Assembly: GCF_037198285.1 (NCBI RefSeq)
Contig: NZ_CP147243.1
Location: 2,534,422-2,598,421, forward strand
DNA length: 64,000 nt
Source of the DNA: Haladaptatus sp. DJG-WS-42
GTDB taxonomy: Archaea; Halobacteriota; Halobacteria; Halobacteriales; Halococcaceae
Reading direction: 5' to 3'
Under the pieces are notes generated by a model that was not told where the DNA came from, did not search any database, and saw only the letters and a program-made list of their open reading frames with translations. Of the stretch, positions 20,301 through 38,234 are shown in pieces (position 1 is the first letter of the stretch; each line of letters opens with the position of its first letter). A program made the translations under genes and the position numbers.

Positions 20301-20415
20301 ACAAAGCAGCCACGAACTCCTGTAAATTCATTATGAAGGTTCTAAACGGTTTTTAGCCACGGGGCTAGTCGTGCCATCGGGTAGCTATTTGCGTTCTCAC
20401 CCGAGTTATTCGGAC

Positions 20416-21138
20416 ATGACCACAAAAACTGGCCGCCGCTGGCAGCGCGGGACGGCTCCGGGGACGTTTTCAATCGCCGCCTACGACCCCGGTGCAGACA
20501 GCTTTGGCGTCGCCGTCACCACCGGCGCTGTCGCCGTCGGGGCAACCTGCCCGCACGTGAGCGCGAACGGCGCGGTACTCACCCAATCGTGGACGAAAAC
20601 TGCCCATGGCGTTCACGCGCTCGAACTCATAGACCGCGGCGTCTCCGTTTCGACCGCCTGTGACGCGCTTCTCGAGGCAGACGAGTACGCGAGCTATCGA
20701 CAACTCCACGGCATCGACCGCGACGGCGAGCCGTTCACCTTCACCGGCGCAGACTGCGTCGAGTGGGCTGGCGAGACAACGGGAGAAAATCACACCGTCG
20801 CTGGGAACATGCTCGTCGGTCCCGAGGTCGTAGACGCGGTGAGCGAGGCGTTCACCACGACAGATGGCGACCTCGCAGACCGCCTACTCGCTGCACTGAC
20901 TGCGGGGGCTGACGCAGGTGGCGACAAGCGCGGGAAAGTGAGTGCAGCGTTGCTCGTCCACGCGCCAGAGCCAAAGCTGTATCACAACCTCAGAATCGAC
21001 AGTTCGGAGACGCCAATCTGCGACCTCTGTGACCTCTATGAGGAGACGAAACAGACCGTCCGCGACATCCCGAACGAAGCAGAAAAAATGCTCGGGGGCG
21101 TCCCCGACGAAATCGTCGACTTCGGCGTGAAGTACTAG
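20416..21138 (+). CDS. DUF1028 family protein
   Basis: 240-residue protein resembling the DUF1028 family, which has an Ntn-hydrolase-like fold. Visible features are GTFSIAAYDP near the start, GVAVTTGAVAVGATCPHVSANGAVLTQSW, NHTVAGNMLVG and the final segment with paired cysteines in ETPICDLCDLYEE. In bacteria, DUF1028 genes are frequently found beside peptide ABC transporters and amino-acid amidohydrolases, which is the situation here. It is convergent with, and overlaps by four bases, the transporter ATPase gene. The ATG at 20416 was chosen because it directly precedes the conserved N-terminal strand. Confidence 0.83.
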   Translation: MTTKTGRRWQRGTAPGTFSIAAYDPGADSFGVAVTTGAVAVGATCPHVSANGAVLTQSWTKTAHGVHALELIDRGVSVSTACDALLEADEYASYRQLHGIDRDGEPFTFTGADCVEWAGETTGENHTVAGNMLVGPEVVDAVSEAFTTTDGDLADRLLAALTAGADAGGDKRGKVSAALLVHAPEPKLYHNLRIDSSETPICDLCDLYEETKQTVRDIPNEAEKMLGGVPDEIVDFGVKY

Positions 21139-23234
21139 TTACCGAGCGTCGTCTCGCTCATCTCGGCAACCGAGAGGTGACAGGACAGTTCGTGGCCCGT
21201 CCCGTCTTCTTTGACCTCCAATTCAGGGACGTCAGTCTCACACTCTCCACCAATCTTCTTCGGACACCGCGTCTGGAACGGACACCCAGACGGCGGGTCG
21301 ATTGGACTCGGCACGCTCCCCTCTAAGAGGATGCGCTCGGTCTCCCGTTCGGGGTCTGCGTGGGGCACCGCAGAAAGCAAGCTTTCTGTGTACGGGTGGA
21401 ACGGCGCAGAGAACACCTGCGGAACCGTCCCCTGTTCGACGATGTGTCCGAGGTACATCACCGCGACGCGGTCACAGATGTGCTGGACAACGCCGATGTT
21501 GTGTGAGATGAACAGGTACGACAGCCCGTAGCTCTCCTGAATATCTTCGAGCAGATTCAGAATCTGGGCTTGCACGGACACGTCGAGGGCGCTCACCGGT
21601 TCGTCACAGATGATGAGCTTCGGCTCTGCAGCGAGGGCGTGCGCAATCGCAATCCGCTGTTGTTGCCCGCCCGAGAATTCGTGGGGATACTTGTTTGCAG
21701 CCTCAGCAGAGAGGCCCACGCGCTCTAACAACGCTTCTGTCCGCTCGCGCTTCTCGTTGCCCGTGGCGATGTCGTGTTTCTCCATCGCCCGGCCGATGAT
21801 TCGCCCCACCGTCTTGCGCGGGTTGAGCGAACTCTGTGGGTCTTGGAAGATAATCTGCATCTCCTTTCTGAGACTGCGAATCTCCCGGCTCGACAGTTCG
21901 TGGAGCGGTTGGTCCTCGAAGTACACTTCCCCGCCCGTCGGTTCGAGGAGTTTGAGCACGGTTCGTGCGACCGTCGATTTCCCGCAGCCGGATTCGCCGA
22001 CCAACCCAACCGTTTCGCCGGGTTGGATGTGGAAGCTCACGTCGTCAACTGCTTTGACGTGCTTGCGCTCGATGGTGGGCAACCCACCGTCGGCTAAGGT
22101 GAACGAAAGGCTGTCAACCAGCCCGTCACCGGCCGAGAAGTACTTCTTCAGGTTGTTCACCGTCAACACTGGGTCTGCGGCCGAATCGACCGTCTGCGCG
22201 CCTTCGCCCGCCGCCTGTTTGGGGATGTCAGGTTCGCTCAAGTCGAGTTCGTCGCTACGAAGACACGCCGCCTGCGACCCGCTCTGAAGCGATTCGAGGG
22301 CCGGGTCGCCGCCGGTTCGACACGCCGGTTCTGCGTACTCACAGCGGTCTGCGAAGTTACAGCCGTCAGGCAAGTCGAGGAGGTCTGGCATCGACCCTGG
22401 AAGCGTTGGGAGCACGTCGTACTCCAACTCGGGGTCGGGAATCGAGTTGATGAGCCCACGCGTGTAGGGGTGGCGCGGCCTGCGGAACAGCTCGTGCATC
22501 TCCGCTCTTTCGACCAGATTCCCGGCGTACATGACGCCAACGTGGTCGCACGTCTGGGCGACGACGCCGAGGTTGTGGGTAATCATCAGAATACCCATTC
22601 CTTTCTCCTCTTGGAGGTCGTTCAACAGGCCGAGAATTTTCGCCTGCGTCGTCACGTCAAGCGCGGTGGTTGGCTCGTCCGCGATAATCAGGTCAGGCTG
22701 ACAGGAGAGGCCAATCGCAATCAGCACGCGCTGGCGCATCCCACCGGAGAACTCGTGTGGGTAGTCGTCAAAGCGCGAGGCTGCATCGGGGATGCCGACT
22801 TCCTCCATCGAGCGGATGGCTTGTTCGCGGGCTTCTTTTTCGCCTTTGTTCTGGTGTTCGGTGATGGTTTCCACAATCTGCGAGCCAACGGTCAACACCG
22901 GGTTGAGCGCCGTCATCGGGTCTTGTGGAATCATGGCGATTTTGTTCCCGCGCATCGCTCGCATCTCTTTTTCTGAAAGCGTGCGGAGGTCTGTACCCTT
23001 GAATAGAATCTTTCCGCCGACGATTTCGCCCGGCTTGTCGATGAGCCGCATGATAGAGCGGGCGGTCACGCTTTTTCCGGCGCCGGACTCACCGACTAAG
23101 CCCATCGTGTCGCCGGATTCGAGCGTAAAGGAGACGTCGTTGCTGGCGACGACGGGGCCGTCTTCCGTGCGGAACTGCGTGCGGAGGTTTTCGACTTCTA
23201 AGAGTGGCGTAGTCATGGAATTGTCCTGAGTCAT
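21135..23234 (-). CDS. Fused double ABC transporter ATPase (DppD-DppF type)
   Basis: 699-residue protein combining the two ATPases of a peptide/nickel-type importer. Domain 1 has Walker A GESGAGKS, signature FSGGMRQR and Walker B LIIADEPTTALD, followed by the family Cys-rich oligopeptide tail (CNFADRCEYAEPAC). A linker near residues 335-360 leads to domain 2 with GESGCGKS, FSGGQQQR and LIICDEPVSALD, again ending in a Cys-containing tail (CPFQTRCPKK). The start ATG overlaps the stop of the permease gene (ATGA), which fixes it. Last gene of the transporter operon. Confidence 0.93.
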   Translation of the reverse strand: MTQDNSMTTPLLEVENLRTQFRTEDGPVVASNDVSFTLESGDTMGLVGESGAGKSVTARSIMRLIDKPGEIVGGKILFKGTDLRTLSEKEMRAMRGNKIAMIPQDPMTALNPVLTVGSQIVETITEHQNKGEKEAREQAIRSMEEVGIPDAASRFDDYPHEFSGGMRQRVLIAIGLSCQPDLIIADEPTTALDVTTQAKILGLLNDLQEEKGMGILMITHNLGVVAQTCDHVGVMYAGNLVERAEMHELFRRPRHPYTRGLINSIPDPELEYDVLPTLPGSMPDLLDLPDGCNFADRCEYAEPACRTGGDPALESLQSGSQAACLRSDELDLSEPDIPKQAAGEGAQTVDSAADPVLTVNNLKKYFSAGDGLVDSLSFTLADGGLPTIERKHVKAVDDVSFHIQPGETVGLVGESGCGKSTVARTVLKLLEPTGGEVYFEDQPLHELSSREIRSLRKEMQIIFQDPQSSLNPRKTVGRIIGRAMEKHDIATGNEKRERTEALLERVGLSAEAANKYPHEFSGGQQQRIAIAHALAAEPKLIICDEPVSALDVSVQAQILNLLEDIQESYGLSYLFISHNIGVVQHICDRVAVMYLGHIVEQGTVPQVFSAPFHPYTESLLSAVPHADPERETERILLEGSVPSPIDPPSGCPFQTRCPKKIGGECETDVPELEVKEDGTGHELSCHLSVAEMSETTLGN

Positions 23235-24145
23235 TCGACGGTGTCCACCTTGGGGTCAAGCACGTCGCGCAGGCCGTCACCGAGCATGTTGAACCCGATG
23301 ACGGTGATGGCGATGGCCATTCCCGGGAAGATAATCATCCACGGTGCAGTTTGCATAAAGTCACGTCCGGTGTCGATCATCAGCCCCCACGACGGGTTTG
23401 GGGGCTGGGTGCCAAGCCCGAGGAACGAGAGACTCGCTTCCTGTAGCATGGCAAAGGCGATGTTAATCGACCCTTGGACGAGCAGTGGGGCGATACAGTT
23501 TGGCAACACCTCGCGGAAGATGATGAATGAATCACTCTCACCGCGGGCAGTTGCTGCCTCGACGAACGACTCGTTGCGCACCGAAAGTGCGGCACTCCGA
23601 GCCACGCGGGCGATGTACGGCGTGTACACGAATCCGAGCGCCAAGATGACGTTGTTCAGGTCGGGACCGATGACGACCATCACGGTGAGCGCGAGGAGAA
23701 TCGGCGGGAAGGACATGAGCGCGTCCATCATCCGCATCAACACCTCGTCTACCACACCGCCGTAATACCCGGAGACAGTTCCGATAATCGTCCCGGCGGC
23801 GAGGGCTGCAGCAATCGACCCAAAGCCGACCTTCAGCGAAATACGCGTTCCCATGATGACGCGACTGAAGATGTCGCGCCCGAGGTCGTCCGTGCCGAAC
23901 GGATGTTCGAGCGACGGTGCCTGTGACCGGTCCGGGATGTTCGTCTCTTGGATTGAGTGTGGGATGATGTAGGGTGCAAACAGCGCGGTCAAGATGAGCG
24001 TGAATACGATGACGAGTCCGATCATCGCCTTCTTGTTGCGTCGGAATTTCCGGACAAAGCGCTTTGTGCGCTCTATCTGTGGGGCGTACTGTTCGCTGAG
24101 CGACTCCGATTTATCAGCAGAGTTCGTAACTTCTGCATTCGACAT
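23231..24145 (-). CDS. dppC: Peptide ABC transporter permease (DppC type)
   Basis: 304-residue permease. It begins with a long hydrophilic N-terminus and a first span (KAMIGLVIVFTLILTALFAPY), then the N-terminal OppC-like segment HPFGTDDLGRDIFSRVIMGTRISL. Several membrane spans follow with the EAA loop (EAATARGESDSFIIFREVLPN) that contacts the ATPase. The C-terminal span and the final GLRDVLDPK are typical. It overlaps the downstream ATPase gene by four bases and abuts dppB. Confidence 0.9.
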   Translation of the reverse strand: MSNAEVTNSADKSESLSEQYAPQIERTKRFVRKFRRNKKAMIGLVIVFTLILTALFAPYIIPHSIQETNIPDRSQAPSLEHPFGTDDLGRDIFSRVIMGTRISLKVGFGSIAAALAAGTIIGTVSGYYGGVVDEVLMRMMDALMSFPPILLALTVMVVIGPDLNNVILALGFVYTPYIARVARSAALSVRNESFVEAATARGESDSFIIFREVLPNCIAPLLVQGSINIAFAMLQEASLSFLGLGTQPPNPSWGLMIDTGRDFMQTAPWMIIFPGMAIAITVIGFNMLGDGLRDVLDPKVDTVE

Positions 24146-25105
24146 CTATTCGTCACCTCCGTAGCGGATGCGTGGGTCGAAGTAGGCGTACAACAGGTCG
24201 GCCGTGAAGTTCGAAAGCATGAAGATGAGGGCAACCACGATGATGCAGCCTTGCAACAGCGGGATGTCCCTGCTCTGGATGGCGGTGAGCGTGAGATTCC
24301 CGATGCCCGGCCAGACGAACACCTTTTCGAGCACAACGACGCCACCGAAGGCGTAGCTGAACTGGAATGCGATGACCGTGATGACCGGGATGATTGCGTT
24401 GCGAAGCGCGTGACGCAGGACGATGACTCGCTGAGTCATGCCCTTTGCCTTGGCAAAGCGGATGTACTCCTCGCTCAGCACTTCAATCATGCTGGAGCGA
24501 GTCATCCGCATCACGTAGGCGGTGAGCGCAAAGCCCATCGAGGTGGCTGGCAACACGAGGTGTTTGAGCGTGGCAACCGGGTCTTCGCTCGGCGGGACGT
24601 ACCCACCGGTGGGGAACCAGTCGAGCCATACCGCAAACACGAGGATGAACACTAGCCCCCAGAGGAAGATGGGGATGGAGACGCCGATGAAACTGAACGA
24701 GGAGGCCGCGAGGTCGGGCCCTTCGTTCTGCTTGACGGCGGCGATGACGCCGAGGGGGATGGCGAGCATGATGGCGACGAACGTCGCAGCCACCGCAAGC
24801 ATCAGCGACCGTGGGAGTTTTTCAGCGATGAGCTGGGCAACGGGGTCTCCAAAGCGAATGGAGGTGCCCATGTTCCCAACCACGACATCCTGTACCCAGC
24901 TGAGATACTGGATGTAGAGTGGCTGGTTGAGGCCGAGTTGGGTCTGGAGTTGGTGGAGACTCTCTTCGCCGGCGTTCGGGCCGAGAATCAACAGTGCAAC
25001 GTCGCCCGGGAGGATGTTCGTGATGGCGAACGTGATGAGTGACACGAGAAACAGTGTCACCACCATGAACCCGACCCGGCGAGCGAGATAGTTGTGCAGG
25101 GACAT
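24146..25105 (-). CDS. dppB: Peptide ABC transporter permease (DppB type)
   Basis: 319-residue inner-membrane permease with the typical start LARRVGFMVVTLFLVSLITFAI, an extracytoplasmic loop, and the EAA-type loop (YIRFAKAKGMTQRVIVLRHALRN) for ATPase coupling. C-terminal FDPRIRYGG is the family ending. Its stop lies directly before the dppC ATG, so the two are tightly coupled. The upstream gene encodes the binding protein. Confidence 0.91.
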   Translation of the reverse strand: MSLHNYLARRVGFMVVTLFLVSLITFAITNILPGDVALLILGPNAGEESLHQLQTQLGLNQPLYIQYLSWVQDVVVGNMGTSIRFGDPVAQLIAEKLPRSLMLAVAATFVAIMLAIPLGVIAAVKQNEGPDLAASSFSFIGVSIPIFLWGLVFILVFAVWLDWFPTGGYVPPSEDPVATLKHLVLPATSMGFALTAYVMRMTRSSMIEVLSEEYIRFAKAKGMTQRVIVLRHALRNAIIPVITVIAFQFSYAFGGVVVLEKVFVWPGIGNLTLTAIQSRDIPLLQGCIIVVALIFMLSNFTADLLYAYFDPRIRYGGDE

Positions 25106-25119
25106 CGTTCAGAGTCGAA

Positions 25120-26778
25120 TTATTGGTCGAGCCAGTTGTCTTCGAAGCGCAGGGTAGAGCCGTCCGGTGCGCCGATTTTGCCCTGGTAGCTCGAATCTGC
25201 GGCGAACAGGTTCGCTTGCCAGAACAAGAACAGGTGGCCTGCACGGTCTTCTTGCAGGATTTCTGCGGCGCGGTGGTACTTTTCTGCCCGCTCGTCGGTG
25301 TCGTAGATGCGGCGGGCGTCTTCGACGAGCGTGTTGTACTCGTCGTTCTCCCAGCCGGTGAAGAAGTACGCACCGTTCGGGTGGAGGAACTTGTAGTACG
25401 ACACGTCAGGGTACCAGAGTGCGAGGTACGACGACGTGGTCGCTTGGAAGTCCTGTTTGCTGTAGACGTCAGAGAGCCACAGACTCCACGGAATCTTCTG
25501 AATCTCTAAGTTGATGCCGACTTCGGAGGCGGAGTCTTGGATGATTTTCGCCGCAGTAACCTGTGCTGCGTACGGCTCTGGAATCTTGAACGTCGCCGTG
25601 TAGCCGTCTGGGTAGGCCGACTGTGCGAGGTGTTCTTTCGCCTTCTCTAAGTCCTTTGGCCGTGGTTCTAAGTCCGTGTTCTCCCACGGGCTGCCCGGTG
25701 CGGCTGGGGTCGCGGCTGGCTTGCCCGTACCGTAGAGGGCTGCCTCTGCGACTTCTGCTTTGTCAATAGCGAAGTCGAGTGCGAGGCGAGCGTGTTTGTC
25801 GTCGAACGGTTCGCGGTTACAGTTGAGCCCCATGTAGACAAGCGCTTTCGGGAAGGTGGTCTCAAAGCGCGTGTTCGACTGTGATTCGACGCTCTGGACG
25901 TCTTTTGGTGGGACGTCGTTGATGAAATCGAGTTCGCCAGCCTGGAACGACTGGAGTCGGACGCTTGCGTCCGACACTTCCTTTTTGACGACCTTGTCGA
26001 GCATCGCTGGTTCGCCCCAGTAGTCCTCGAACTTGGTCATCACGAACTCGCTCTCGATTTCCATGCTGTCGAACTGGAACGGACCCGTGCCGATTGGCTC
26101 TTTGATCTGGTCTTGTTGAGCCTGCGCTTCGGGGACGACGTGCATCTCCGAGGTCGCCATGCGAGCAAGGAACGGCGCAAACGGTTCGGTGAGCGTGATT
26201 TCGAACGTGTAATCGTCCGGCGCTTTCATCGAATCGACGTTCTCGAAGTAGCCGTTGGCGAGGTATTGCTCGCCGTTTGCGACGCGTTCGAGCGAGGCGA
26301 GCACGTCGGCTGAGGTCATCTCCTCGCCGTTGTGGAACTTCACGCCCTCTCTGAGCTCGAAGGTGAGTTTCGTGTTGTCTTCTGACGTTTCCCACGACTT
26401 TGCGAGGTCTGGCTGGAGGTTGTATTCCCAGTCGACCGTCAGCAGGCCTTCGGTGATGTTTTCGAGAACGCGAGCCGATGCGGCGGCGCTCTCAAGGTGT
26501 GGGTCGAGGGTCTGGACGGGGACACTGCCGCCCCAGTTGAGGGTGCCACCGGACTGTGGCTCACCACTGCTGCCACCGTCGCCGCCCGAGCCACCATCTC
26601 CGCCGCTGCCACCGTCGCCACCATCGCCACCGTCGCCGCCACCCATACAGCCAGCGAGCGCAAGCGCGCCAGTCGCCGAGGCTGCGGTGATGAATCTCCG
26701 ACGATTCAAGCGGTTTTCCGGATGCGGAGAGGAAGCCTGTTCGTGTTGATTTTCGTTTGCATTGCCATCCCGAGACAT
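25120..26778 (-). CDS. dppA: Solute-binding lipoprotein of peptide ABC transporter (family 5)
   Basis: Extracellular binding protein, 552 residues from the ATG at 26778. The signal is a Tat lipoprotein type: NRRRFITAASATGALALAGC with the lipobox LAGC. A glycine/aspartate/serine-rich spacer follows, repeating GGDGGDGG over about 35 residues, likely keeping the domain away from the membrane. The mature domain shows SBP family 5 features (TLNWGGSVPVQTLDPH, KLTFELREGVKFHNGE, GTGPFQF). The substrate may be a peptide, but family 5 proteins also bind other small molecules. The longer upstream frame is not used. First gene of the four-gene transporter operon. Confidence 0.92.
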   Translation of the reverse strand: MSRDGNANENQHEQASSPHPENRLNRRRFITAASATGALALAGCMGGGDGGDGGDGGSGGDGGSGGDGGSSGEPQSGGTLNWGGSVPVQTLDPHLESAAASARVLENITEGLLTVDWEYNLQPDLAKSWETSEDNTKLTFELREGVKFHNGEEMTSADVLASLERVANGEQYLANGYFENVDSMKAPDDYTFEITLTEPFAPFLARMATSEMHVVPEAQAQQDQIKEPIGTGPFQFDSMEIESEFVMTKFEDYWGEPAMLDKVVKKEVSDASVRLQSFQAGELDFINDVPPKDVQSVESQSNTRFETTFPKALVYMGLNCNREPFDDKHARLALDFAIDKAEVAEAALYGTGKPAATPAAPGSPWENTDLEPRPKDLEKAKEHLAQSAYPDGYTATFKIPEPYAAQVTAAKIIQDSASEVGINLEIQKIPWSLWLSDVYSKQDFQATTSSYLALWYPDVSYYKFLHPNGAYFFTGWENDEYNTLVEDARRIYDTDERAEKYHRAAEILQEDRAGHLFLFWQANLFAADSSYQGKIGAPDGSTLRFEDNWLDQ

Positions 26779-26803
26779 ACCTTCGGCTATCCAAGTTACT
26801 GCA

Positions 26804-26810
26804 CTTAAAT
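26804..26810 (-). promoter_or_regulatory. TATA-like promoter of the transporter operon
   Basis: On the coding strand ATTTAAG, about 29 nt upstream of the binding-protein ATG, consistent with a leaderless transcript. Confidence 0.5.
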
Positions 26811-27410
26811 CATTCGGTGTCCCAGACAGTTCACTCTTACTTCTTACATAATACTCCCAGAAACATTCTCTGAAAGCGGGGGTGGGGTTTGGGAATCTCC
26901 GCAGCGCAGAACTATGGTGCACCCGCTCGAACGACGACACTTGTTGTTATTCAATGGAGATTTACTCAAATAACTACTGAGACACTGTGATACCGTGTAC
27001 AGAGTTAGACAATTGTGCGCCTCACTCCGACCTGTCTACGACGAGTTCTGCCTGTCTACGGAGCCACAATCGCGTCGCTAGAAAACCAAATTCACTGAAC
27101 CCCCTATTTCTGTCAGAACTACTACTATCTCTCGACTGGCAGTTTTATTGCTCTTTATATACTGTGAGGAGTTTCTACGCGATCCCATCTCCCTCTCGAA
27201 AATAGGCGTTTGAGCAACTCATGAGCGGAATTTCGAAATAACGTTCCTCATTGTTGTTTATACTCGAAACGAGCTGTCTCACTCTCAATGCGGTACTTCC
27301 GATAGCTCAGCGATGCGTTGTTTGAAAACATACCGTTCTGCTGTGTGGCTCTCGCTCGCACGCGAAACATACAAATTGGAAATTTTCCAGAATTTCCCCG
27401 CAATAGGAAG
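26811..27410. other. Divergent intergenic region, 600 bp
   Basis: AT-enriched segment between the transporter operon and the carbamoylase gene. It holds TATA-like stretches (for example CTTTATATACTG near 27150). The short reading frames in both directions (around 26987-27205 and 27248-27445) look random. No gene is called. The length suggests regulatory sites for both divergent units. Confidence 0.5.
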
Positions 27411-27447
27411 AATAAAATACTACTTCTCCACAAAGTGCTGGCCATAT

Positions 27448-28698
27448 ATGGACGTATGCACAGAGCGATTGCAGAATGACCTCGAAGCGAACGCCGAATT
27501 CGGCGCTGTCGCTGTCGAACGCGGTCGAAGTCGGACTGTTCTCACCGGCACCGAGGCAGATCGCAAGGCTCGTGATTTTCTCATCTCACGGCTCGAAGCC
27601 GCGGACCTGGCCGTTCATGTCGATGCTGTCGGGAACATCGTAGGTCGGTGGGAGCCAGAAAGTGCAGACCCCGATGCGCCACCAATTGCCGCGGGCAGCC
27701 ACCTCGATTCGGTTCCCCGTGGTGGCATCTTCGACGGGCCACTCGGTGTCTACGCCGCCCTTGAAGCCGTCCGGGCCATGCAAGACGCAGCAATTGCACC
27801 GGAACGACCGATTGAGGTTGTCTCGTTCACCGAGGAGGAAGGCCAGCGCTTCGGTGGGGGACTGCTCGGCTCTGCGGTTGCCACTGGAGACTACACAGTC
27901 GAAGAAACGCTCGCGCTCACCGACGACGACGGTGTCTCACTCGAACACGTCCTTTCTGAGATTGGTTATCTTGGTGAGGGCATCGTTGATGCCAGTGCGT
28001 GGGACGCATGGTTCGAACTCCACATCGAACAGGACACCCGACTCGAAGCCGAAAACGTGAGTGCGGGGGTCGTGACGACGATTACCGGTATCACCCGCTG
28101 TACAATCGAGATTCTCGGTGAAGCGAACCACGCCGGAGCCACGCTGATGGGTGACCGAACCGACGCCCTCGCTGCGGCAAGTGAGTTCATCCTCGACATC
28201 GAGGCGGCCACCAACGAGTACGTCGAACAGGAAAGCGAAACCGCGGTCGGAACCGTTGGCAAACTCGGCGTCTCACCGAACGCTCCAAACGTGATTGCCG
28301 GAGCAACCACGCTCACCGTAGACGTAAGAGACGTTGCCGAAGCGTCGATGGAACACATTGTGTCTGCGGCCAAAACGAGCCTTGCACGTCTCGAGAACGA
28401 ACGCAATGTGGAAACGAGCTTCGACCGACCGTGGCATCGCGAACCCGTCCCAATGGCAAATCGGTGTCGCGACGCACTCCACGTCGCTGGCGAAACGGCC
28501 GATATTTCGACGCTCGACCTCCACTCCGGGGCTGCCCACGACACGATGAACGTGGCGGCAGTCACGGACGCAGCGCTGTTGTTCGCGCCATCCAAAGACG
28601 GCATCTCTCACTCACCGCTCGAGTGGACCGATTGGGAGGACTGTGCAGCAGCAACCCGCGTTCTCGCCGGGGCGATGGCTGACCTCGCCTGTCAGTAG
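27448..28698 (+). CDS. Zn-dependent N-carbamoyl-amino-acid hydrolase / allantoate amidohydrolase family
   Basis: 416-residue M20-type amidohydrolase of the hydantoinase/carbamoylase family. Metal ligands are in AAGSHLDSVPRGG and FDGPLGVYAALE, the catalytic Glu pair in SFTEEEGQRFGG, a further His in ELHIEQDTRLE, and the final His in LHSGAAHDTMN. Substrates in the family include N-carbamoyl-L-amino acids, beta-ureidopropionate and allantoate; the sequence cannot say which. The ATG at 27448 follows an AATAAAATAC TATA-like element by about 30 nt; the upstream in-frame extension is AT-rich and unlike protein. It lies beside a peptide-type transporter and IclR. Confidence 0.88.
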   Translation: MDVCTERLQNDLEANAEFGAVAVERGRSRTVLTGTEADRKARDFLISRLEAADLAVHVDAVGNIVGRWEPESADPDAPPIAAGSHLDSVPRGGIFDGPLGVYAALEAVRAMQDAAIAPERPIEVVSFTEEEGQRFGGGLLGSAVATGDYTVEETLALTDDDGVSLEHVLSEIGYLGEGIVDASAWDAWFELHIEQDTRLEAENVSAGVVTTITGITRCTIEILGEANHAGATLMGDRTDALAAASEFILDIEAATNEYVEQESETAVGTVGKLGVSPNAPNVIAGATTLTVDVRDVAEASMEHIVSAAKTSLARLENERNVETSFDRPWHREPVPMANRCRDALHVAGETADISTLDLHSGAAHDTMNVAAVTDAALLFAPSKDGISHSPLEWTDWEDCAAATRVLAGAMADLACQ

Positions 28699-29000: not shown

Positions 29001-29065
29001 TTCAACCGTTTTCCACGATTGTTCGAGGGGGAAACGGCTATGTGCCAACGGTTCATGGTTTACAC

Positions 29066-29881
29066 ATGGCTGAATTGCCGGGCGATCGCTCTTCTCGCAC
29101 GTTACAGACGGTGAGCACGTCGGCCGACATCATCACCACGCTTGTCGAACTCGATGGCGCTCGCGTCACCGAACTTGCGAATCACCTCAACCTCTCGAAA
29201 AGCGCCGTTTACAACCACCTCACGACGCTTCGACAGAAGAATCTCGTCGTCAAATCGGGCGATGACTACGAACTGAGCTACCAGTTCCTCCTCCTCGGAG
29301 AGTACGTCCGCAACCGCTCACAGATTTATCGCGTTGCCCGCCCCGAACTCGACCGACTCGCAGAGGAGTGTGGCGAGTACGTCCACCTCTCGACCGAACA
29401 ACATGGGCTTGGCATCAACCTCTACAAAGTCCACGGCCCGAAAGCAGTCGGCAGCGACTACCAGACCGCGAAACTCCAGAAACCGGATTACTTACACTAC
29501 TCTGCAACCGGCAAAGCACTCCTCGCGGAACTCCCGCGAGAGCGCGTCGACACCATCGTCGAGCGCCACGGTCTCGTCTCTCGGACGGCGAACACGATTA
29601 CCACTGCAGCGGACCTCCACGAGGAGTTAGCGCGTATCCGCGAGCAAGGCTATTCGTGCAACGACGAAGAAGAAATCGAAGGGCTGCGGGCTGTTGGTGC
29701 GTCCATCTGCGACCGTGAAGGAACCGTCCTCGGCTCGCTCAGCGTTTCCGGGCCGACCAGTCGCCTCAAAGGCGACCGCTTTCACGAGACGATTCCAGAA
29801 CTGGTGATGAGCACGGCAAACGTCATCGAAGTGAACATCAATATGTCAGACCAAAGCTCGAATTTGCCAAACCTGTCGTAG
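29066..29881 (+). CDS. IclR-family transcriptional regulator
   Basis: 271 residues from the ATG at 29066. An N-terminal winged helix (LVELDGARVTELANHLNLSKSAVYNHLTTLRQKNLV) precedes the IclR effector domain with HLSTEQHGLGINLYKV, HYSATGKALLAELP and the C-terminal CDREGTVLGSLSVSGPTSRL. The effector domain is expected to bind a small organic acid or carbamoyl metabolite. Neighbouring carbamoylase, transporter and NhaC-type genes are the likely targets. A GTG at 29042 would extend it by eight residues. It is preceded by a TATA element and an inverted repeat. Confidence 0.92.
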   Translation: MAELPGDRSSRTLQTVSTSADIITTLVELDGARVTELANHLNLSKSAVYNHLTTLRQKNLVVKSGDDYELSYQFLLLGEYVRNRSQIYRVARPELDRLAEECGEYVHLSTEQHGLGINLYKVHGPKAVGSDYQTAKLQKPDYLHYSATGKALLAELPRERVDTIVERHGLVSRTANTITTAADLHEELARIREQGYSCNDEEEIEGLRAVGASICDREGTVLGSLSVSGPTSRLKGDRFHETIPELVMSTANVIEVNINMSDQSSNLPNLS

Positions 29882-30070: not shown

Positions 30071-31573
30071 TTAGTCGTCGCCGAGCGACGAGATGGCGCC
30101 CTTGAGACCAGCCTGTGTCTCTTCTGTTTGCTTCGTAATCCGCCAGCCAGTCAGCCCCATCGCGACGAGGATGAGCGGCGAGAGGAAGCCAAGGAAGTAG
30201 TACGGCGCGTAGCCTTGGAGCCCCATCGAACCGGCGAACGGCGCGACGCCGAGGACGCCAGTCATGTAGATTGCACCGGCGTTCCACGGAATGAGCGCGC
30301 TCGTCGTCGTCCCTGCGGCTTCGATGCCACGAGAGAGGTTGCGGCTCTCTAAGTCGAAGTCCTCGTAGAGGCCACGGAGGCTCATCCCGGGGACGACGAT
30401 GCTCATGTACTGCTCTGCGGCGAGGATGTTCATGCCAAAGGCGGAGACGGCCGTCCCGATGGTCAGGCCAGCGACCGACGTGATGGCCTTGCTCAGGTGG
30501 TGGGTCAACACGGCGATAACGCCCGTGCGTTCTAAGATACCACCGAGTGCGAGTGCGGCGACAACGATGGTAATGGTCCATGCCGAATCGCCTACGACGC
30601 CGCCGGAGGCGAGGAGGCCATTGACAAGCTCAGAACCGGTCTCTGGTTCCGTGCCATACATCGGCACTTCCCACGCGGCGACGAAGTTCGCAACCGTGAG
30701 TGGCCCTTGGAGGAAGAACTGCGTGAACACACCCGCGAAGATGCCCGCGCCGAGTGCTGGCAGGGCGGGGAAGCCGGTGAGTGCGAGGCCAAAGGTGATG
30801 AGCAGCGGCAAGAAGACGAGCGGCGAGAGGTTGTACGTTCCTGCAATTGCCGACTGGATGTTCCCCACGCTCTCTGCTGGAATCGCGCCAGCGGCGTTGA
30901 GCCCGAGGATGGTGTAGAGGACGAGCGAAATCCCCATCGCAATCGACGTCCCGACGCGCATGGTGCGCACGTGGGTCATGAGGTCGGTGTTCGTGACGGC
31001 CGCAGCGAGATTCGTGGTGTCTGAGAGCGGCGAGATTTTGTCGCCTGTGTACGCCCCCGTGAGGACCGCGCCAGCGGTCATCTGCTCGGGGACGCCAAGC
31101 CCGGCTCCGATGCCGATGAACGCAACACCGAGCGTCCCGGCGGTGGTCCACGAGGAGCCAATGGAGAAGGCGACGATGGCCGCGAGCAGTGCAGTCGCGG
31201 GGAGGAACACCTGCGGATTCAGGATATCGAGGCCGTAGTAGATGAGTGCGGGAATCGTGCCCGACCCCGTCCACGTGGCGATGAGCAGGTAGATGATGAA
31301 GATAATCAGTATCGCTTGCATCCCCATGCGCAGTCCATCAACGATGCCTTCGTACATGCGAGTCCACGAAATGCCAATCCAGTAGCGCCCGACAAGCCCG
31401 GTGAGGACGATGCCCCACAACAGCGGCATGTGGGCGTCGAGGCCAAGCCCGATTGCACCGACACTCAGGAAGGTGAGCATCCCGAGAACGGGCACCAATG
31501 CCTGGAACAGCGTCGGTCGTTCCTCGACTGGAATGTCGTCGTACGAGAGCGGTTCGAATGACAGTGTTGCCAT
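30071..31573 (-). CDS. nhaC: NhaC-family Na+/H+ antiporter-like transporter
   Basis: 500-residue integral membrane protein with about eleven hydrophobic spans. Family features are FSIGSSWTTAGTLGVAFIGIG, GAVLTGAYTGDKISPLSDTTNLAAAV and the late LIPWNAGAIYMTGVLG. NhaC relatives exchange Na+ and protons, some with organic anions such as malate or lactate. The gene is isolated between the iclR gene and the acyl-CoA ligase. A TATA-like GAAATAAG is about 20 nt ahead of the ATG. Its link to the neighbouring catabolic genes is inference. Confidence 0.88.
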   Translation of the reverse strand: MATLSFEPLSYDDIPVEERPTLFQALVPVLGMLTFLSVGAIGLGLDAHMPLLWGIVLTGLVGRYWIGISWTRMYEGIVDGLRMGMQAILIIFIIYLLIATWTGSGTIPALIYYGLDILNPQVFLPATALLAAIVAFSIGSSWTTAGTLGVAFIGIGAGLGVPEQMTAGAVLTGAYTGDKISPLSDTTNLAAAVTNTDLMTHVRTMRVGTSIAMGISLVLYTILGLNAAGAIPAESVGNIQSAIAGTYNLSPLVFLPLLITFGLALTGFPALPALGAGIFAGVFTQFFLQGPLTVANFVAAWEVPMYGTEPETGSELVNGLLASGGVVGDSAWTITIVVAALALGGILERTGVIAVLTHHLSKAITSVAGLTIGTAVSAFGMNILAAEQYMSIVVPGMSLRGLYEDFDLESRNLSRGIEAAGTTTSALIPWNAGAIYMTGVLGVAPFAGSMGLQGYAPYYFLGFLSPLILVAMGLTGWRITKQTEETQAGLKGAISSLGDD

Positions 31574-31707: not shown

Positions 31708-33324
31708 TTATCTGTCTGGTGTCTGCTCTAACGTCGTCTGCTCGAACTGCTCTCGCAATCGCTTCTTATCGAACTTTCCAGTTGCAGTTTTCGGCACTTC
31801 ATCGACGAACAAGATGGTGTCGGGGAGCCACCAGCGCGGGTAGGAGTCGCTCAAAAATTCCCGCACTTCGTCTGCGGTGAGCGTGCTTTCAGGTCGCAGT
31901 TTCAGCGTCGCTGCGGGGCGCTCTTGCCACTTCTCGTGGGGGATTGCGAACACCGCGGCTTCCGTGATTTCGTCGTGACCCATCAGCTGATTTTCGAGTT
32001 CGATGCTCGAAATGTACTCGCCACCGCTTTTGATGATATCTTTGTCTCGGTCGACGAGCTCGATGTAGCCGTGGTCGTCTACGGTGACGATGTCGCCTGT
32101 TTTGAGCCAGTCGCCTTCGAAGCTGTCTGCGGTCGCATCCGGTCGATTGTAGTACTCGTCTACGACGGTTGGCCCGCGGATCCAGAGTTCGCCAAACGTT
32201 TCGCCGTCCCACGGTATCTCTTCACCTTTGGTGTTCACGACTTTCATGTCGAGGCTTGGAGCTAGAATGCCCTGCTTGGCCCGTTTTTCGAACTGGCGTT
32301 CTTGTGGCCAGTCGCGCATGTAGGATTTTGGCCGCGACACACTGGAGATGCTCATCGTTTCGGTCATCCCCCATGCTTGGTCGATGGTGACGCCGTACTC
32401 CTCTTCGTAGGTTCGCATGACACCTTCGGGGACGGCGCTCCCTCCCGCGACGATGCGGTCGAGCGAGGAGATGTCCACGTCGTGTTCGTCGAGATATTCG
32501 AGCATGGAAATCCACACCGTCGGCACACCGCCGGTGAGCGTCACGCCTTCTGTCTCGATGAGATGGGCGAGTTCTTCGACGGTCGGTGAGGGGCCGGGGA
32601 ACACCTGTTTTGCGCCCGCGACGGTCGCTGCGTAGGGAAGCCCCCACGCATTGACGTGGTACATCGGAACGGTATGGAGCACCACGTCAGATTCGTCAAT
32701 GCACATGCTCGCAGGCGACATGAGCATCATGCCGTGGGCATACAGCATCGACTGGGTGTACTCGACACCCTTTGGCTTGCCCGTGGTGCCCGACGTATAA
32801 CACATGCTCGCCGGTTGGCCTGGGTCGAGTTCCGGCCACTCGACCGTTGCGTCTTCGACTACGATGTCGTCGTAGGCAACTGCTGGAAGGTCGGTGTCAG
32901 GGACAGAATCGCTCATGACCACGACGTGTTCGACACAGTCGATAGCATCCCAGACGCGCTCGACTGTTTTGAGCGGGTCACCCGGGTCTACGAGCAAAAC
33001 GGAATCTTGGGCGTCGTTTACGATGTACGAAACGTGACTGTCGGGGAGGACGGCGTTGATGGTGTGAAGCTGGCCACCAGAGAGCGGAACGGCGAAGTAC
33101 GCCTCGTAGTGGCGGTGGTGGTTGTAGCCAATCGTCCCGATGCGCGCCCCTTCAGCGACGCCAAGTTCAGCAAGCCCGGCGGCGAGTCCGGCAACGCGGT
33201 CTTCGAACTCCGCATACGTGTACCGTCGGTCTCCATCCGGCGGGCACGAAACGACTTCTTTCTCCGGAAAGAGCCGTGTCGCCCGGGTGAAGTACGACAG
33301 AAGCGTCATGTTTGAAGATGGCAT
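31708..33324 (-). CDS. Acyl-CoA synthetase (AMP-forming)
   Basis: 538-residue ANL ligase that activates a carboxylic acid to its CoA thioester. The phosphate-binding loop is CYTSGTTGKPKGVEYT, the core motif GAxIDQAWGMTET-like (DQAWGMTETMS), the hinge motif LKTGDIVTVDDHGYIELVDRDKDIIKSGGEYIS, and the C-terminal lysine in KTATGKFDKKRLREQ. The N-terminus resembles medium-chain fatty-acid ligases (GYNHHRHYEAYFAVPLSGG and QLHTINAVL). It is transcribed divergently from the 625-residue reductase with a shared 169-nt promoter gap (TATA-like GTTATATGTTA at 33352-33362). Confidence 0.9.
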   Translation of the reverse strand: MPSSNMTLLSYFTRATRLFPEKEVVSCPPDGDRRYTYAEFEDRVAGLAAGLAELGVAEGARIGTIGYNHHRHYEAYFAVPLSGGQLHTINAVLPDSHVSYIVNDAQDSVLLVDPGDPLKTVERVWDAIDCVEHVVVMSDSVPDTDLPAVAYDDIVVEDATVEWPELDPGQPASMCYTSGTTGKPKGVEYTQSMLYAHGMMLMSPASMCIDESDVVLHTVPMYHVNAWGLPYAATVAGAKQVFPGPSPTVEELAHLIETEGVTLTGGVPTVWISMLEYLDEHDVDISSLDRIVAGGSAVPEGVMRTYEEEYGVTIDQAWGMTETMSISSVSRPKSYMRDWPQERQFEKRAKQGILAPSLDMKVVNTKGEEIPWDGETFGELWIRGPTVVDEYYNRPDATADSFEGDWLKTGDIVTVDDHGYIELVDRDKDIIKSGGEYISSIELENQLMGHDEITEAAVFAIPHEKWQERPAATLKLRPESTLTADEVREFLSDSYPRWWLPDTILFVDEVPKTATGKFDKKRLREQFEQTTLEQTPDR

Positions 33325-33493
33325 TCAGTACTCTCACAGTTGTCCCATTGTAACATATAACACGTTGGGTACCGGGCAAAACTTGTCTAGTTACCATTTC
33401 TGAAAATTCACCACACGCGACATTGGCGATTAACCATTGTATTTGATTTTGCACAAGTTACGTTTATCACTGCGCTCCGGGAACGTGTGAGCC

Positions 33494-35371
33494 ATGGGAA
33501 CGATTGAACCACCAGAGCTCGCTTCCGATGACCTCGTCGAAAACCTCATCGAAGCCGGTGATCTGCTCCCAATTGGCGCACCGTTCTATCCTGGTGAAAC
33601 CGACATTCCTCCGTACCAGCTTGCATGGGGTATCATTGGCGACGACGACGGCGAACCTATCCACGGCGAACCGCTCAACGATGAGGCAGAAAAAGAAATC
33701 GTCGTGCCGGTCGAAGAGCCCGGCCCGATGGACGCCCTCGTCTACCTGCTCACTTCCGAAGTCAACTTCAACGACTCGTGGGCAATCGCGGGTGACCCCG
33801 TCTCGACGTTCAAAGGCCACGACATTCCGTGGCACATCACCGGCTCCGGCGGCCTTGGCTACGTCGTCTCCGTCGGTGAGGCAATCGAAGAACAGGGCCG
33901 CATCGAAGTTGGCGACCTCGTAAACGTCTACGCCGGACAGTTCGACCCAATCGACCCGAAAGCGTCGAAAGACCCGATGTTCTCGAGCTACGAGATTCAG
34001 GGCTACCAGACGCCGGACGGCTCTCACCAGCAGTTCATGGTCGCCCAAGGCACGCAGCTGTTCAAACCACCACAGAACTTAAACCTCACCGAGGCCGGTT
34101 CCTACATTCTCACGATGGGCACCATCTACCGCGCCCTCTTTACCAGCCTCGACGTGGAGCCGAACTCGAACCTCTTCGTCGAAGGTGCATCCACCGGGAC
34201 GGGCCGCGACGCCGTCGTCATGGCCGCGAGTCAGGGACTCAACGTCACGGGTCTCGTCTCCAGTGACGAACGCGCCCAGCGCGCTCGCGACGCCGGTGCG
34301 ACCGCGACCATCAACCGCAAAGATGCGTCGCTCGTAGACGCCATGACCGACGTGCCACACGACCCCGACGAGTGGGCCGAGTGGGAAGCTGCGGGCGAAC
34401 CGCTCCTCGACACCTACCGCGAACAAAACGACGGCGAACTCGCAGACTACGCCGTCTCGCACGCAGGGAAACTCGCCTTCTCGCGCAGCTACCAACTCCT
34501 TGGAGACGGCGGCCGCCTCACGTTCTACGGCGCTTCGACGGGCCACGAACTCTCCTTTATCGGGAAAGGCAGCAGCGTCGAACCCGAAGAGATGTTCTCG
34601 CGGGCACACCTCCGGCCCGGCCAGTCGGTGCTCGTCTGGTACGGCACGCCAGAAGACGTTTCCGGCACCGAAGACGCGGTTGCTGAGGACGCCATCGAGT
34701 CTGCACTCGGTAGTCGCGCACGCGTCGCCGTCATCACCGAAACCGACGAGCAGGCAGATTACGTCGAGAGCGAGTACGACGTGACGGGCGTCATCAGCCT
34801 CGAAACTCTCGCTGCAGAAAACGACTCCTTCGAGTTCATGGACAGCTTCCCATCGATCGACGACCCGAGCAATCTGGGCGCGTACATGGGCAAGATGTTC
34901 AAGCCACTCGGCATCGCGCTCGGTGGCATCCTGAAGTCGCCGAACAACCCGCGTGGCAACCCCGACGTGGTGTTCGAGCGCGCGGGCCAGAACACGCTCG
35001 CCGTCTCTTCGATGCTCTGTTTCCCATATCAGGGAAGCGTCGTCTTCGCAGAGGAGATGGCGGGCCGTCGCTACTCGTTTTACGCCCCGCAGGTCTGGAT
35101 GCGCCAGCGGCGTATCTACATGCCGTCCACCGAAATCTTCGGGACGCACATGAAAAATCCGTGGGAGGTCGCCCAGATGAACGAAGCCATCGAACTCGAT
35201 GCCTTCGGCGTCCCAGAAACCCACCTCACCGCGTGGGACGACGCGCCGAAAGCCCACCAAGACATGTGGGACAACACCCACGAGGAAGGCTCCTACGTCA
35301 TCAACCACGCCCTGCCTGAAGACGGGCTTGCGGACGAAGCGGCCTTACTCGAAGCCTGGGACGAGCAGTAA
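33494..35371 (+). CDS. Medium-chain reductase of the crotonyl-/acrylyl-CoA reductase type
   Basis: 625 residues, far longer than the usual 430 of crotonyl-CoA carboxylase/reductase. It starts with an N-terminal GroES-like domain (LTSEVNFNDSWAIAG at 86-100, HITGSGGLGYVVSVG at 114-128), then YETPDG-like QGYQTPDGSHQQFM at 169-182, a nucleotide-binding motif (VEGASTGTGRDA at 229-240), an inserted region (about 290-465), and RRYSFYAPQVWMRQRRI at 525-541. The order and the insert match, in my memory, the reductase part of bifunctional propionyl-CoA synthase, which reduces acrylyl-CoA. The residues equivalent to the CO2-binding Phe-Glu of carboxylating enzymes appear to be Tyr171-Gln172, which suggests simple reduction. 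The adjacent ligase and glyoxylate genes point to C3/C2 acid use. Confidence 0.8.
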   Translation: MGTIEPPELASDDLVENLIEAGDLLPIGAPFYPGETDIPPYQLAWGIIGDDDGEPIHGEPLNDEAEKEIVVPVEEPGPMDALVYLLTSEVNFNDSWAIAGDPVSTFKGHDIPWHITGSGGLGYVVSVGEAIEEQGRIEVGDLVNVYAGQFDPIDPKASKDPMFSSYEIQGYQTPDGSHQQFMVAQGTQLFKPPQNLNLTEAGSYILTMGTIYRALFTSLDVEPNSNLFVEGASTGTGRDAVVMAASQGLNVTGLVSSDERAQRARDAGATATINRKDASLVDAMTDVPHDPDEWAEWEAAGEPLLDTYREQNDGELADYAVSHAGKLAFSRSYQLLGDGGRLTFYGASTGHELSFIGKGSSVEPEEMFSRAHLRPGQSVLVWYGTPEDVSGTEDAVAEDAIESALGSRARVAVITETDEQADYVESEYDVTGVISLETLAAENDSFEFMDSFPSIDDPSNLGAYMGKMFKPLGIALGGILKSPNNPRGNPDVVFERAGQNTLAVSSMLCFPYQGSVVFAEEMAGRRYSFYAPQVWMRQRRIYMPSTEIFGTHMKNPWEVAQMNEAIELDAFGVPETHLTAWDDAPKAHQDMWDNTHEEGSYVINHALPEDGLADEAALLEAWDEQ

Positions 35372-35452: not shown

Positions 35453-35740
35453 GTGAGTGAAGAAGAAGGTGGGCGGAGGAACCTCCGCATGCCAAACAGC
35501 GACGAGATGTTCGCGGTCGTCACCGAGATGCTCGGTGGCAACCACGTCCGTCTCCAGTGTCAAGACGGGGAAACCCGGCTGGGACGCATTCCCGGCCGGA
35601 TGAAGTATCGGACATGGATTAACGAGGATGACGTGGTTCTCATCGAACCGTGGTCGTGGCAAGACGAGAAGGCCAACATCGAGTGGCGCTACACCAAACA
35701 GGACGCCGCCCAGCTGCGCCGCGAAGGCCACATCCAGTAA
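35453..35740 (+). CDS. eif1A: Translation initiation factor aIF-1A
   Basis: 95-residue OB-fold factor that supports ribosome scanning and initiator tRNA binding. It has the S1-like core [46 protein letters not shown] and the charged tail. The gene uses GTG at 35453, after a short upstream gap with no clear Shine-Dalgarno. It sits alone among metabolic genes and is convergent with the malate synthase gene. Confidence 0.94.
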
Positions 35741-35839: not shown

Positions 35840-37141
35840 TCAGCGTCCGACGTTTGCTGCACGCTCGACGATGTCTTCGCCGTACAACGCCGCCAAGTCG
35901 TCGTGTTGGTCTGGCCGATTCTCGTAGACGTCTTGGAAGAGTGCAATCGGGGTCATCGCTGCTTGGAAGGTCGCTTCGTCCCACATCCGGTCTTTGTTGA
36001 TGGCGATGTCGACCTCGCCGATGCGAATCGTCGCCGACTGCGTGATGGCGATTGCGCCTCTGCCCGCGTCGCGCGCCGTCTCGAACTCTTCCATCGAGTC
36101 CACGATATCGTCCATGCTCGGGACGTAGACGGTCAGATTCAACAGTTCCTCTCGGAGTTCGTCTTCTGTGAGTTCCTGCTCGTCGGTGCCCACGCGGAGG
36201 ACGTAGCCACCGTCGGTCTCTGTGACCGACACGCGGTCGCCGTCGTACACCTGCACGCCGTCTTCGGGCGTGAGTTCGACCCGGCGGTCTCCGGCTTCGA
36301 TGTGCCAGCTTCCGGTCTTCGGTGGGAGTGGTCCTTTGTTCGCTTCGACCACTTGGCCGGGTGTGAGCGACCAGATGCCAAGCATCCCCTTCGCGTGATT
36401 CTCGGTCATGCGAGTGTGGTAGCCTTCGACGTCGCGGATATTGTCGTACGGTCCATCGACCGCGATGAGACCCGCGGCGCTCGCTGCACGCGAGGTGTTG
36501 TGGCGCAGTTCCGGCCACGGAGGGAGCGACCCGGTGGGCGTCATCCCGCGCATGTCCTTCGTGTAGTCCACTTCACCGTCGACGAGCATGAACAGGCGTT
36601 CTAAGTTGTTCGTTGGCTTGCCCATCTCGTCGCGGAGGTGGCCCATCGCCAACTCGGCTTCACCGCTTTCGACGATGACGGACATGTTGATACTGCCCTC
36701 TGGCAGGCCGTGTTCGTGTTCGACGATGGTGATGAACTCGTCCGCTTTTTTCCAGTCGTCGATGTCGCCCACTTCGGGGATGACGAACCCGTCGATGTGC
36801 TCTATCGCGCCGCGCTCTGGGTCTGCGATTTCGAGCATGTGCTTGAAGCCTTGATAGCGGGTTGCCGGGCTGTCGCGGTGCCAGACAATGCGCGGATGGA
36901 TTTCGCCGGGGAACTCCGCGCCGCCTTCTGAGACGACGTCGATGATGTTTTCGGCGCCTTCGTCGCGCATCGAGGGGGCGGTCGCGTCTTCATTGTCCGG
37001 AACCCACACGTCTGGGGCTTTCATCCCACGGAGCTTGATTGCGCTCCGGAGCATCTTCGCTGAGTCTTGCTCTCCTTCCACCGCGGTTGGCGTGGTGAAA
37101 AACGTTCGAACAAACTGTCTGCCGTGTATTCGTTCTGTCAT
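35840..37141 (-). CDS. aceB: Malate synthase (haloarchaeal type)
   Basis: 433 residues. It condenses glyoxylate with acetyl-CoA in the glyoxylate bypass. Malate synthase features include KAPDVWVPDNEDATAPSMRDEG and EIHPRIVWHRDS near the N-terminus, VESGEAELAMGHLRDEMG, and ALIAVDGPYDNIRD. This is the short haloarchaeal form, distantly related to CitE-like lyases. It is followed 80 nt upstream on the same strand by the isocitrate lyase gene. A TATA-like CATTTAATC is about 29 nt upstream of the ATG, so it may also have its own promoter. Confidence 0.92.
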   Translation of the reverse strand: MTERIHGRQFVRTFFTTPTAVEGEQDSAKMLRSAIKLRGMKAPDVWVPDNEDATAPSMRDEGAENIIDVVSEGGAEFPGEIHPRIVWHRDSPATRYQGFKHMLEIADPERGAIEHIDGFVIPEVGDIDDWKKADEFITIVEHEHGLPEGSINMSVIVESGEAELAMGHLRDEMGKPTNNLERLFMLVDGEVDYTKDMRGMTPTGSLPPWPELRHNTSRAASAAGLIAVDGPYDNIRDVEGYHTRMTENHAKGMLGIWSLTPGQVVEANKGPLPPKTGSWHIEAGDRRVELTPEDGVQVYDGDRVSVTETDGGYVLRVGTDEQELTEDELREELLNLTVYVPSMDDIVDSMEEFETARDAGRGAIAITQSATIRIGEVDIAINKDRMWDEATFQAAMTPIALFQDVYENRPDQHDDLAALYGEDIVERAANVGR

Positions 37142-37220: not shown

Positions 37221-38234
37221 TCAGTCGTCTGACTCTGCGAACCCTTCTGAAGATTCGATGCGCTCTCTGGCGAGTGGGTCGAACTGCTTTTCGATGTCCT
37301 GGTAGCGTGGAACGTTCGAGAGTTCGTGGTGGCTCTCGGTTGGGTGGCCGATGTACTTCTGTTCTAAGTCGAACTGCGCCTGTTCTGCGTTCTCTGCAAG
37401 GTTCTTCATGTCCTCGTAGGCGGCGTATGCGCCGGAGTGGAGCGCGAACAGCGTGATGAACTGGTACTTGTAGCCAAGGTCGCCGAGTTCTTGGAAGGTG
37501 AGTGGGTCTTCCTGCTCAGACCAGCGGAACGACGACGAGTAGTTGAACGCGAGTTTGAGGTCTGGGTGGGTCTCGTGAATCGTCTCTGCGTAGTTCACGG
37601 CGTCTTCGCGCGATGGGTCTGGCATCTCTGGCCAAACGAGGTCGACACCGGCGTCGGCGTAGATGCGCCCGCGCTCTAAGTGTTCTTCCCAGTCGCCGTT
37701 TGCGGAGCCGTAGGCGTCCGTGCGGGCGATGATGATAGTGTCTTCTGACTGTTTTGCGTCCACGGCGGCCTCGAAGCGGGCGCGGGCTTCGTCTCGGGAG
37801 ACGATTTGCTTGCCCGCGATGTGGCCACAGCGCTTTGGCGAGACTTGGTCTTCGATGTGGACGGCGGCGACGCCGGCCTTCTCGTACTCTCGGACTGCAC
37901 GTCGGACGTTGTGGATGCCGCCGTAGCCCGTGTCACAGTCTGCGATGACTGGGAGGTTCGTGGCTTCGCACATTCGCTTTGCGTTCTCGACCATCTCGGT
38001 CATCGTGACCATTTCTAAGTCAGGGAAGCCAAACTGGCCAAGCACGGTCGAGTAGCCGGACATGTAGGCTGCATCGTGGCCAGCCATCTCCGCGAGCCGG
38101 GCGTCTAAGGCGTGATAGAGGCCCGGGGCGAACACGTAGTCTTGGGTGTTGAGCTTGTTTCGGAGTTCGCGGGCTTTCGGGTTGTCGATGTCTTTGATGT
38201 CGAAGTTCGTGTCGGTGATGTAGTCGTCTAACAT
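37221..38234 (-). CDS. aceA: Isocitrate lyase
   Basis: 337-residue enzyme of the ICL/PEP-mutase superfamily, splitting isocitrate to succinate and glyoxylate. The signature loop is [13 protein letters not shown], the metal/substrate segment ADCDTGYGG, and IIARTDAYG follows. It lies directly upstream of malate synthase on the same strand. A small gene overlaps its start. The presence of both bypass genes means this organism probably assimilates acetyl-CoA through the glyoxylate cycle, not the methylaspartate cycle found in some other haloarchaea. Confidence 0.93.

Follow-up and report, generated by a model that had tools for sequence, protein, structure and literature searches.

A predicted stand-alone acrylyl-CoA reductase of the propionyl-CoA synthase type in a haloarchaeon

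The window analysed here, a stretch of 64,000 nucleotides of haloarchaeal DNA, carries on its forward strand (33494-35371) a gene for a member of the reductase family of propionyl-CoA synthase (PCS), encoded separately from the other modules of that enzyme. What is new is a PCS reductase standing by itself in a group of organisms in which a bidomain form and the complete enzyme occur too, as well as the resulting series of one-, two- and three-module proteins in haloarchaea; in the open-access literature we found no paper naming PCS in haloarchaea, nor one on a stand-alone PCS reductase. The open frame (626 codons, ATG start) encodes 625 residues, as initially annotated, and includes neither a ligase nor a hydratase module, and is therefore no complete PCS. 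Its counterparts in two congeneric genomes are 94% and 89% identical, of equal length and free of indels. The nucleotide differences fall predominantly on third codon positions (21/20/115 and 46/29/238 for first, second and third positions, respectively), which identifies the ORF as a coding gene under purifying selection.

Family identity and domain structure

Residues 17-622 align in a phmmer search to residues 1226-1839 of the structure 6eqo (E 1.4e-200, ∼50% identity), that is, to the reductase module of the PCS of Erythrobacter sp. NAP1, an enzyme that the title of the entry describes as tri-functional and not bifunctional, as the initial annotation had it. Crotonyl-CoA carboxylase/reductase (CCR) comes a far second (E 3e-48, 31-33% identity), and the protein stays below the cut-offs of the CCR profile (TIGR01751, 209.2 bits versus 378.55), of the AcuI/YhdH profile (TIGR02823, 21.5 versus 297.25) and of the profile for the crenarchaeal acryloyl-CoA reductase (NF041172, 19.6 versus 500). 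An AlphaFold2 model of moderate confidence (pLDDT 69.6) gave 6eqo as the first Foldseek match (TMq 0.79, 50% identity), CCR being next (TMq 0.50), and in the phylogenetic tree the protein lies on the side of the PCS reductases, apart from CCR, with a support of 100/100. Well over 100 alignment columns, including the nucleotide-binding segment, are invariant among the window protein, the other stand-alone forms and the PCS sequences. Homology over the whole length, tree and structural match thus bear out the PCS-type identity proposed beforehand, and the comparison of profiles and structures suggested at the same time returned the PCS module as best match, with CCR distant.

The relationship to the reductase modules of Erythrobacter, Chloroflexus and Roseiflexus PCS comprises full-length homology at ∼50% identity, both Rossmann units described below, the nucleotide-binding segment and the positions of Asp94 and His552; unlike these modules, the window protein is a separate gene product without ligase and hydratase modules, belongs to a clade of its own (100/100), and most members of this clade have Gln at the position of the CCR Glu. 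With CCR (TIGR01751; 4gi2) it shares the MDR fold and the ancestry of the N-terminal part and of the C-terminal motif, yet CCR lacks the second Rossmann unit and has Gly in place of Asp94. Two further enzymes probably catalyze the same reaction from other branches of the MDR superfamily, namely AcuI/YhdH (324 aa), of another subfamily, and the crenarchaeal acryloyl-CoA reductase, which is likewise archaeal and encoded by a separate gene but belongs to another lineage.

The protein is indeed about 200 residues longer than the CCRs compared (426-447 aa). The first Rossmann unit (aa ∼228-350, 34175..34543, +), delimited by the alignment with PCS and CCR and by the secondary structure of the model, coincides with a match to PF00107 (ADH_zinc_N, aa 237-352) and contains the predicted NADPH site EGASTGTG...VTGLVSSDERA. 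The ∼180 residues by which it exceeds CCR form a second Rossmann-like unit (aa ∼378-520, 34625..35053, +), also present in PCS: it aligns with the first unit in a profile self-comparison (E 9.9e-5, probability 58), shows an alternating strand-helix pattern in the AlphaFold2 model, and is found in every PCS reductase aligned and in no CCR aligned. The insert previously placed at about 290-465 was roughly right, its borders being 357-535 with MAFFT or 284-487 with phmmer; the exact border is ambiguous because of the internal duplication.

Module series in haloarchaea and history of the fusion

A survey of 392 Halobacteriales genomes (E <= 1e-60) returned matches in 20. Full PCS occurs in no fewer than 12 species of haloarchaea (12 genomes with frames of 1800-2030 aa and 50-52% identity, and one more frame cut by a contig end), a hydratase-reductase bidomain protein in one, and the stand-alone reductase in about 8. 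The occurrence in an archaeon, which had been singled out as odd, therefore holds for the separate gene but is less peculiar than first thought, since the complete enzyme is itself present in haloarchaea. As several full-length copies lie on finished plasmids of isolates, e.g., Natrinema zhouii and Natronococcus sp. CG52, contamination is excluded as an explanation. Stand-alone genes sharing 64-94% identity occur in genomes G000, G001, G002, G006, G290 (Natribaculum luteum), G325, where the N-terminus is disturbed, and G381 (Haloferax marinum), and two Haladaptatus plasmids carry genes within the same range. In Natribaculum luteum the stand-alone gene coexists with a complete PCS and with a third copy that is broken.

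Some features of these loci deserve mention in their own right. The three Natribaculum copies (contig 2; L055, L065, L069/L045) all lie on one plasmid, and the broken one has four in-frame TAA stops. Full tri-modular loci (L014, L018, L019, L020, L057-L068, L073, L105), several of them on plasmids, were seen in Natronomonas, Haloglomus, Natribaculum, Natronococcus and Natrinema; in Natrinema zhouii (L105:8491-22260) the PCS gene is followed by genes for an IclR regulator, a TPP enzyme, an AMP ligase, a methylmalonyl-CoA-mutase-family pair and MeaB.

Among the genomes sampled (Halobacteriales, Chloroflexota and Bacillota), stand-alone forms are restricted to haloarchaea. None was found in Chloroflexota (26 of 400 genomes with a match) or in Bacillota (one of 348); the intact matches in these two phyla are full-length PCS, and the only other one is a fragment at a contig end.

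The bidomain protein of G027 (L027:1481-4351, −; 956 aa) joins the reductase to an enoyl-CoA hydratase of the PCS type and lacks a ligase module; its hydratase part shares 40-50% identity with the hydratase domains of PCS, with which it forms a group supported at 100/100. Together with the stand-alone forms it makes up a single clade (100/100), within which it branches outside the other eight members (92/89). The union of the stand-alone forms with haloarchaeal PCS received a support of 65/98, and the alternative with PCS as a clade apart was not rejected (p-AU 0.348). Loss of modules from PCS and survival of a form older than PCS are both compatible with the tree. If the root of the clade lies on the PCS side, a fused hydratase was, judging by the G027 protein, probably lost from the stand-alone forms. 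We tentatively consider, at clearly less than even probability, that the one-, two- and three-module forms represent surviving stages of the process by which PCS was put together, or else taken apart, and that unfused gene clusters encode a dispersed version of the enzyme that would work with free acrylyl-CoA in the degradation of propionate-chain osmolytes.

Gene neighborhoods

Upstream of the reductase and divergent from it lies, as initially noted, a gene for an AMP-forming acyl-CoA ligase (31708..33324, −; 538 aa), which carries PF00501 and PF13193, scores over the cut-off of NF004837 and is PRK06187/DmdB-like. The 169-bp region between the two genes (33325..33493) was thought to be a shared promoter; blocks conserved in three species are consistent with this and are all that speaks for it, a sigma-70 scan being inapplicable to archaea. 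The ligase gene is followed, in its own direction of transcription, by a gene for an NhaC/ArcD-family antiporter (30071..31573, −; PF03553; NF052307, 723 versus a cut-off of 650 bits), and this arrangement of ligase, divergent reductase and carrier is kept in all three genomes of the genus. The nearest relatives of the ligase with solved structures are 1ult, a long-chain fatty-acyl-CoA synthetase (FACS), and 6ihk (388 bits), which we take to be DmdB, the methylmercaptopropionate (3-methylthiopropionate) CoA ligase; NF005426 is its second-best profile, at 300 bits below the cut-off, the FACS type fitting better. As only fragments align to the PCS ligase, at 22-32% identity, the window ligase is by sequence comparison not derived from PCS. 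A role as partner of the reductase, as had been suggested, is plausible.

Further along, an IclR-family regulator gene (29042..29881, +; PF01614) is present in the congeneric genome G001 and absent from the equivalent place in G002. It adjoins a gene for an M20 enzyme of the allantoate-amidohydrolase/carbamoylase family that is part of a possible amide or ureido-compound cluster (20371-28698), which includes peptide/nickel-type ABC transporter genes and a presumably DUF1028-like protein; the carbamoylase and IclR part of this cluster is missing from the same place in G002.

On the other side of the reductase, glyoxylate-bypass genes do follow, i.e., a haloarchaeal malate synthase AceB (35840..37141, −; NF041315, 830 versus a cut-off of 780 bits) and a predicted isocitrate lyase AceA of the short haloarchaeal type (37221..38234, −; PF00463, PF13714), but they are on the opposite strand and lie beyond an aIF1A gene (35453..35740, +; PF01176, E 6e-23). 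This convergent, interrupted order gives no ground for joining them to the reductase, and the functional link drawn at first is thus unsupported. The AceA-like protein (337 aa) scores better with PrpB (methylisocitrate lyase, 192 bits, below its cut-off) than with isocitrate lyase models. Such a short length and such a preference for PrpB are normal for haloarchaeal AceA.

The hydratase module of PCS is missing locally, in agreement with the initial annotation, since no PCS-type hydratase gene is nearby; none was found elsewhere in the genome either, among the eight compared of its ten hydratase-family genes. The genome contains two methylmalonyl-CoA mutase-family genes, and neither it nor 12 other genomes contain an AcuI/YhdH protein scoring over the family cut-off.

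Outside the window's genus, the reductase is accompanied by a different set of genes. An orthologous ADP-forming acyl-CoA synthetase (49-71% mutual identity) is found in all five clusters read and an orthologous enoyl-CoA hydratase (47-75% identity, one clade at 100/100) in four of them, and these separate ligase, hydratase and reductase genes amount to an unfused counterpart of PCS. Three of the clusters contain BCCT carriers that are 63-83% identical. In Haladaptatus (on large plasmids) and Haloferax marinum (L070:6410-17723, L071, L054:6744-16199), the clusters encode an IclR regulator, the hydratase, the ADP-forming synthetase, an EamA protein, a GbcA-like Rieske oxygenase (in Haladaptatus a position-equivalent SRPBCC gene), the reductase and a BCCT carrier, with an additional FAD oxidoreductase in Haladaptatus; they look like systems for the breakdown of a propionate-chain osmolyte. 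The DMSP lyase DddX was considered for the linked synthetase and rejected, as it ranks fifth and seventh among the solved ADP-forming synthetases, with the 4HB-CoA ligase best. The window's genus differs from these clusters by its divergent AMP-forming ligase and NhaC-type carrier, without an adjacent BCCT carrier or ADP-forming synthetase; its only synthetase of the latter kind is a distant one (36%) encoded elsewhere in the genome.

Proposed reaction and alternatives

We propose that the protein is probably a free-standing, NADPH-dependent acrylyl-CoA reductase whose propionyl-CoA would be fed to methylmalonyl-CoA mutase. Reaction and cofactor are inferred from the homology to characterized PCS; the acid substrate, and a pathway in which the reductase would work together with the NhaC-type carrier and the ligase encoded divergently, are guesses. 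The separate ligase would activate a C3 acid, either acrylate or 3-hydroxypropionate, the latter being dehydrated subsequently by a generic hydratase; both acids fit the ligase-reductase pair as upstream compounds. Hydride would then pass from NADPH to C3 of acrylyl-CoA, with protonation at C2 yielding propionyl-CoA, and the reductase would thereby clear the toxic intermediate. Conversion of propionyl-CoA to methylmalonyl-CoA and succinyl-CoA could follow, the two mutase-family genes allowing such an onward use, and given that no AcuI was detected above the cut-off, the reductase may be the sole dedicated acrylyl-CoA reductase of the organism. Acrylyl-CoA is a reactive, cytotoxic electrophile, and the ligase-reductase gene pairs beside acuI in bacteria (PMC4029986) are the closest described arrangement in terms of logic.

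A reductive carboxylation of the CCR kind, giving methylmalonyl-CoA from acrylyl-CoA, NADPH and CO2, seems highly unlikely to us. The motif QGYQTPDG is present as described, with Tyr171-Gln172 (34004..34009, +) at the position of the CO2-binding Phe/Tyr-Glu pair of CCR, and it had been read as a predictor of reduction without carboxylation. This is weak: the second position is Gln in most stand-alone forms and Glu in that of G006, varies between Glu, Gln, Asn and Asp in PCS, and is Gln in one of four CCR sequences, the other three having Glu, so that Gln alone has no predictive value for the reaction. The CCR in question is an annotated ccrA on a Methylocystis plasmid (L076:2977-4281, +). Asp94 (33773..33775, +), the counterpart of Asp1302 in Erythrobacter PCS, appears more telling than Gln172. 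Met536 (35099..35101, +) corresponds to Thr1753, and its position is occupied by Met in most PCS sequences and in some CCRs. Asp1302 and Thr1753 are reportedly the residues replaced in the engineering of PCS towards carboxylation. Such engineering is described in reviews (PMC10176493; PMC8252502), and a promiscuous carboxylating side activity of Erythrobacter PCS (PMC10176493), together with the distant kinship to CCR, the retention of Asn91 and His552 of a CCR-like pocket and the Met536 shared with some CCRs, argues for a carboxylase; Asp94 in place of Gly, Gln172 in place of Glu, the position on the PCS side of the tree and the fact that PCS enzymes are physiologically reductases argue against it. 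The AlphaFold2 model is poor around the substrate/CO2 site and, at residues 148-186 and 524-551, too uncertain to serve as evidence on the CO2 pocket.

The other alternatives concern the substrate and its origin. The ligase may act on another substrate, as its nearest relatives are long-chain fatty-acyl and methylmercaptopropionate CoA ligases and not the PCS ligase, and the reductase could accordingly use another short enoyl-CoA (methylthioacrylyl-, crotonyl- or methacrylyl-CoA) derived from the product of the ligase. Its proximity to DmdB and FACS points in this direction, yet the distance to the NF005426 cut-off, the better fit to the FACS type, the strong conservation with PCS reductases and the presence of a different ligase superfamily beside the reductase in other genera render this unlikely. 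Somewhat less doubtful, although we still regard it as rather improbable, is that the reductase of the relatives, and perhaps at first also that of the window, catalyzes the last step in the breakdown of propionate-chain onium compounds (beta-alanine betaine, DMSP), which would be imported by BCCT carriers, activated as CoA esters and converted to acrylyl-CoA by loss of the amine or sulfide before reduction. The gene content of the Haladaptatus and Haloferax marinum clusters speaks for such a route, but the synthetase is closer to 4HB-/3HP-CoA ligases than to DddX, and the window's genus has neither a BCCT carrier nor this synthetase next to the reductase. Reduction of acrylyl-CoA to propionyl-CoA thus stays our preferred reading for the window protein.

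PCS is a multi-module enzyme thought to confine toxic acrylyl-CoA in a closed compartment. The one-, two- and three-module forms of haloarchaea make the history of this fusion testable and, as stand-alone reductase, hydratase-reductase bidomain and full PCS coexist within one archaeal class, its benefit can be addressed directly in terms of leakage, affinity for acrylyl-CoA and tolerance. Accounts of Haloferax mediterranei list a 3-hydroxypropionate pathway (PMC6631277); the reductase described here points to an unrecognised route to propionyl-CoA in haloarchaea.
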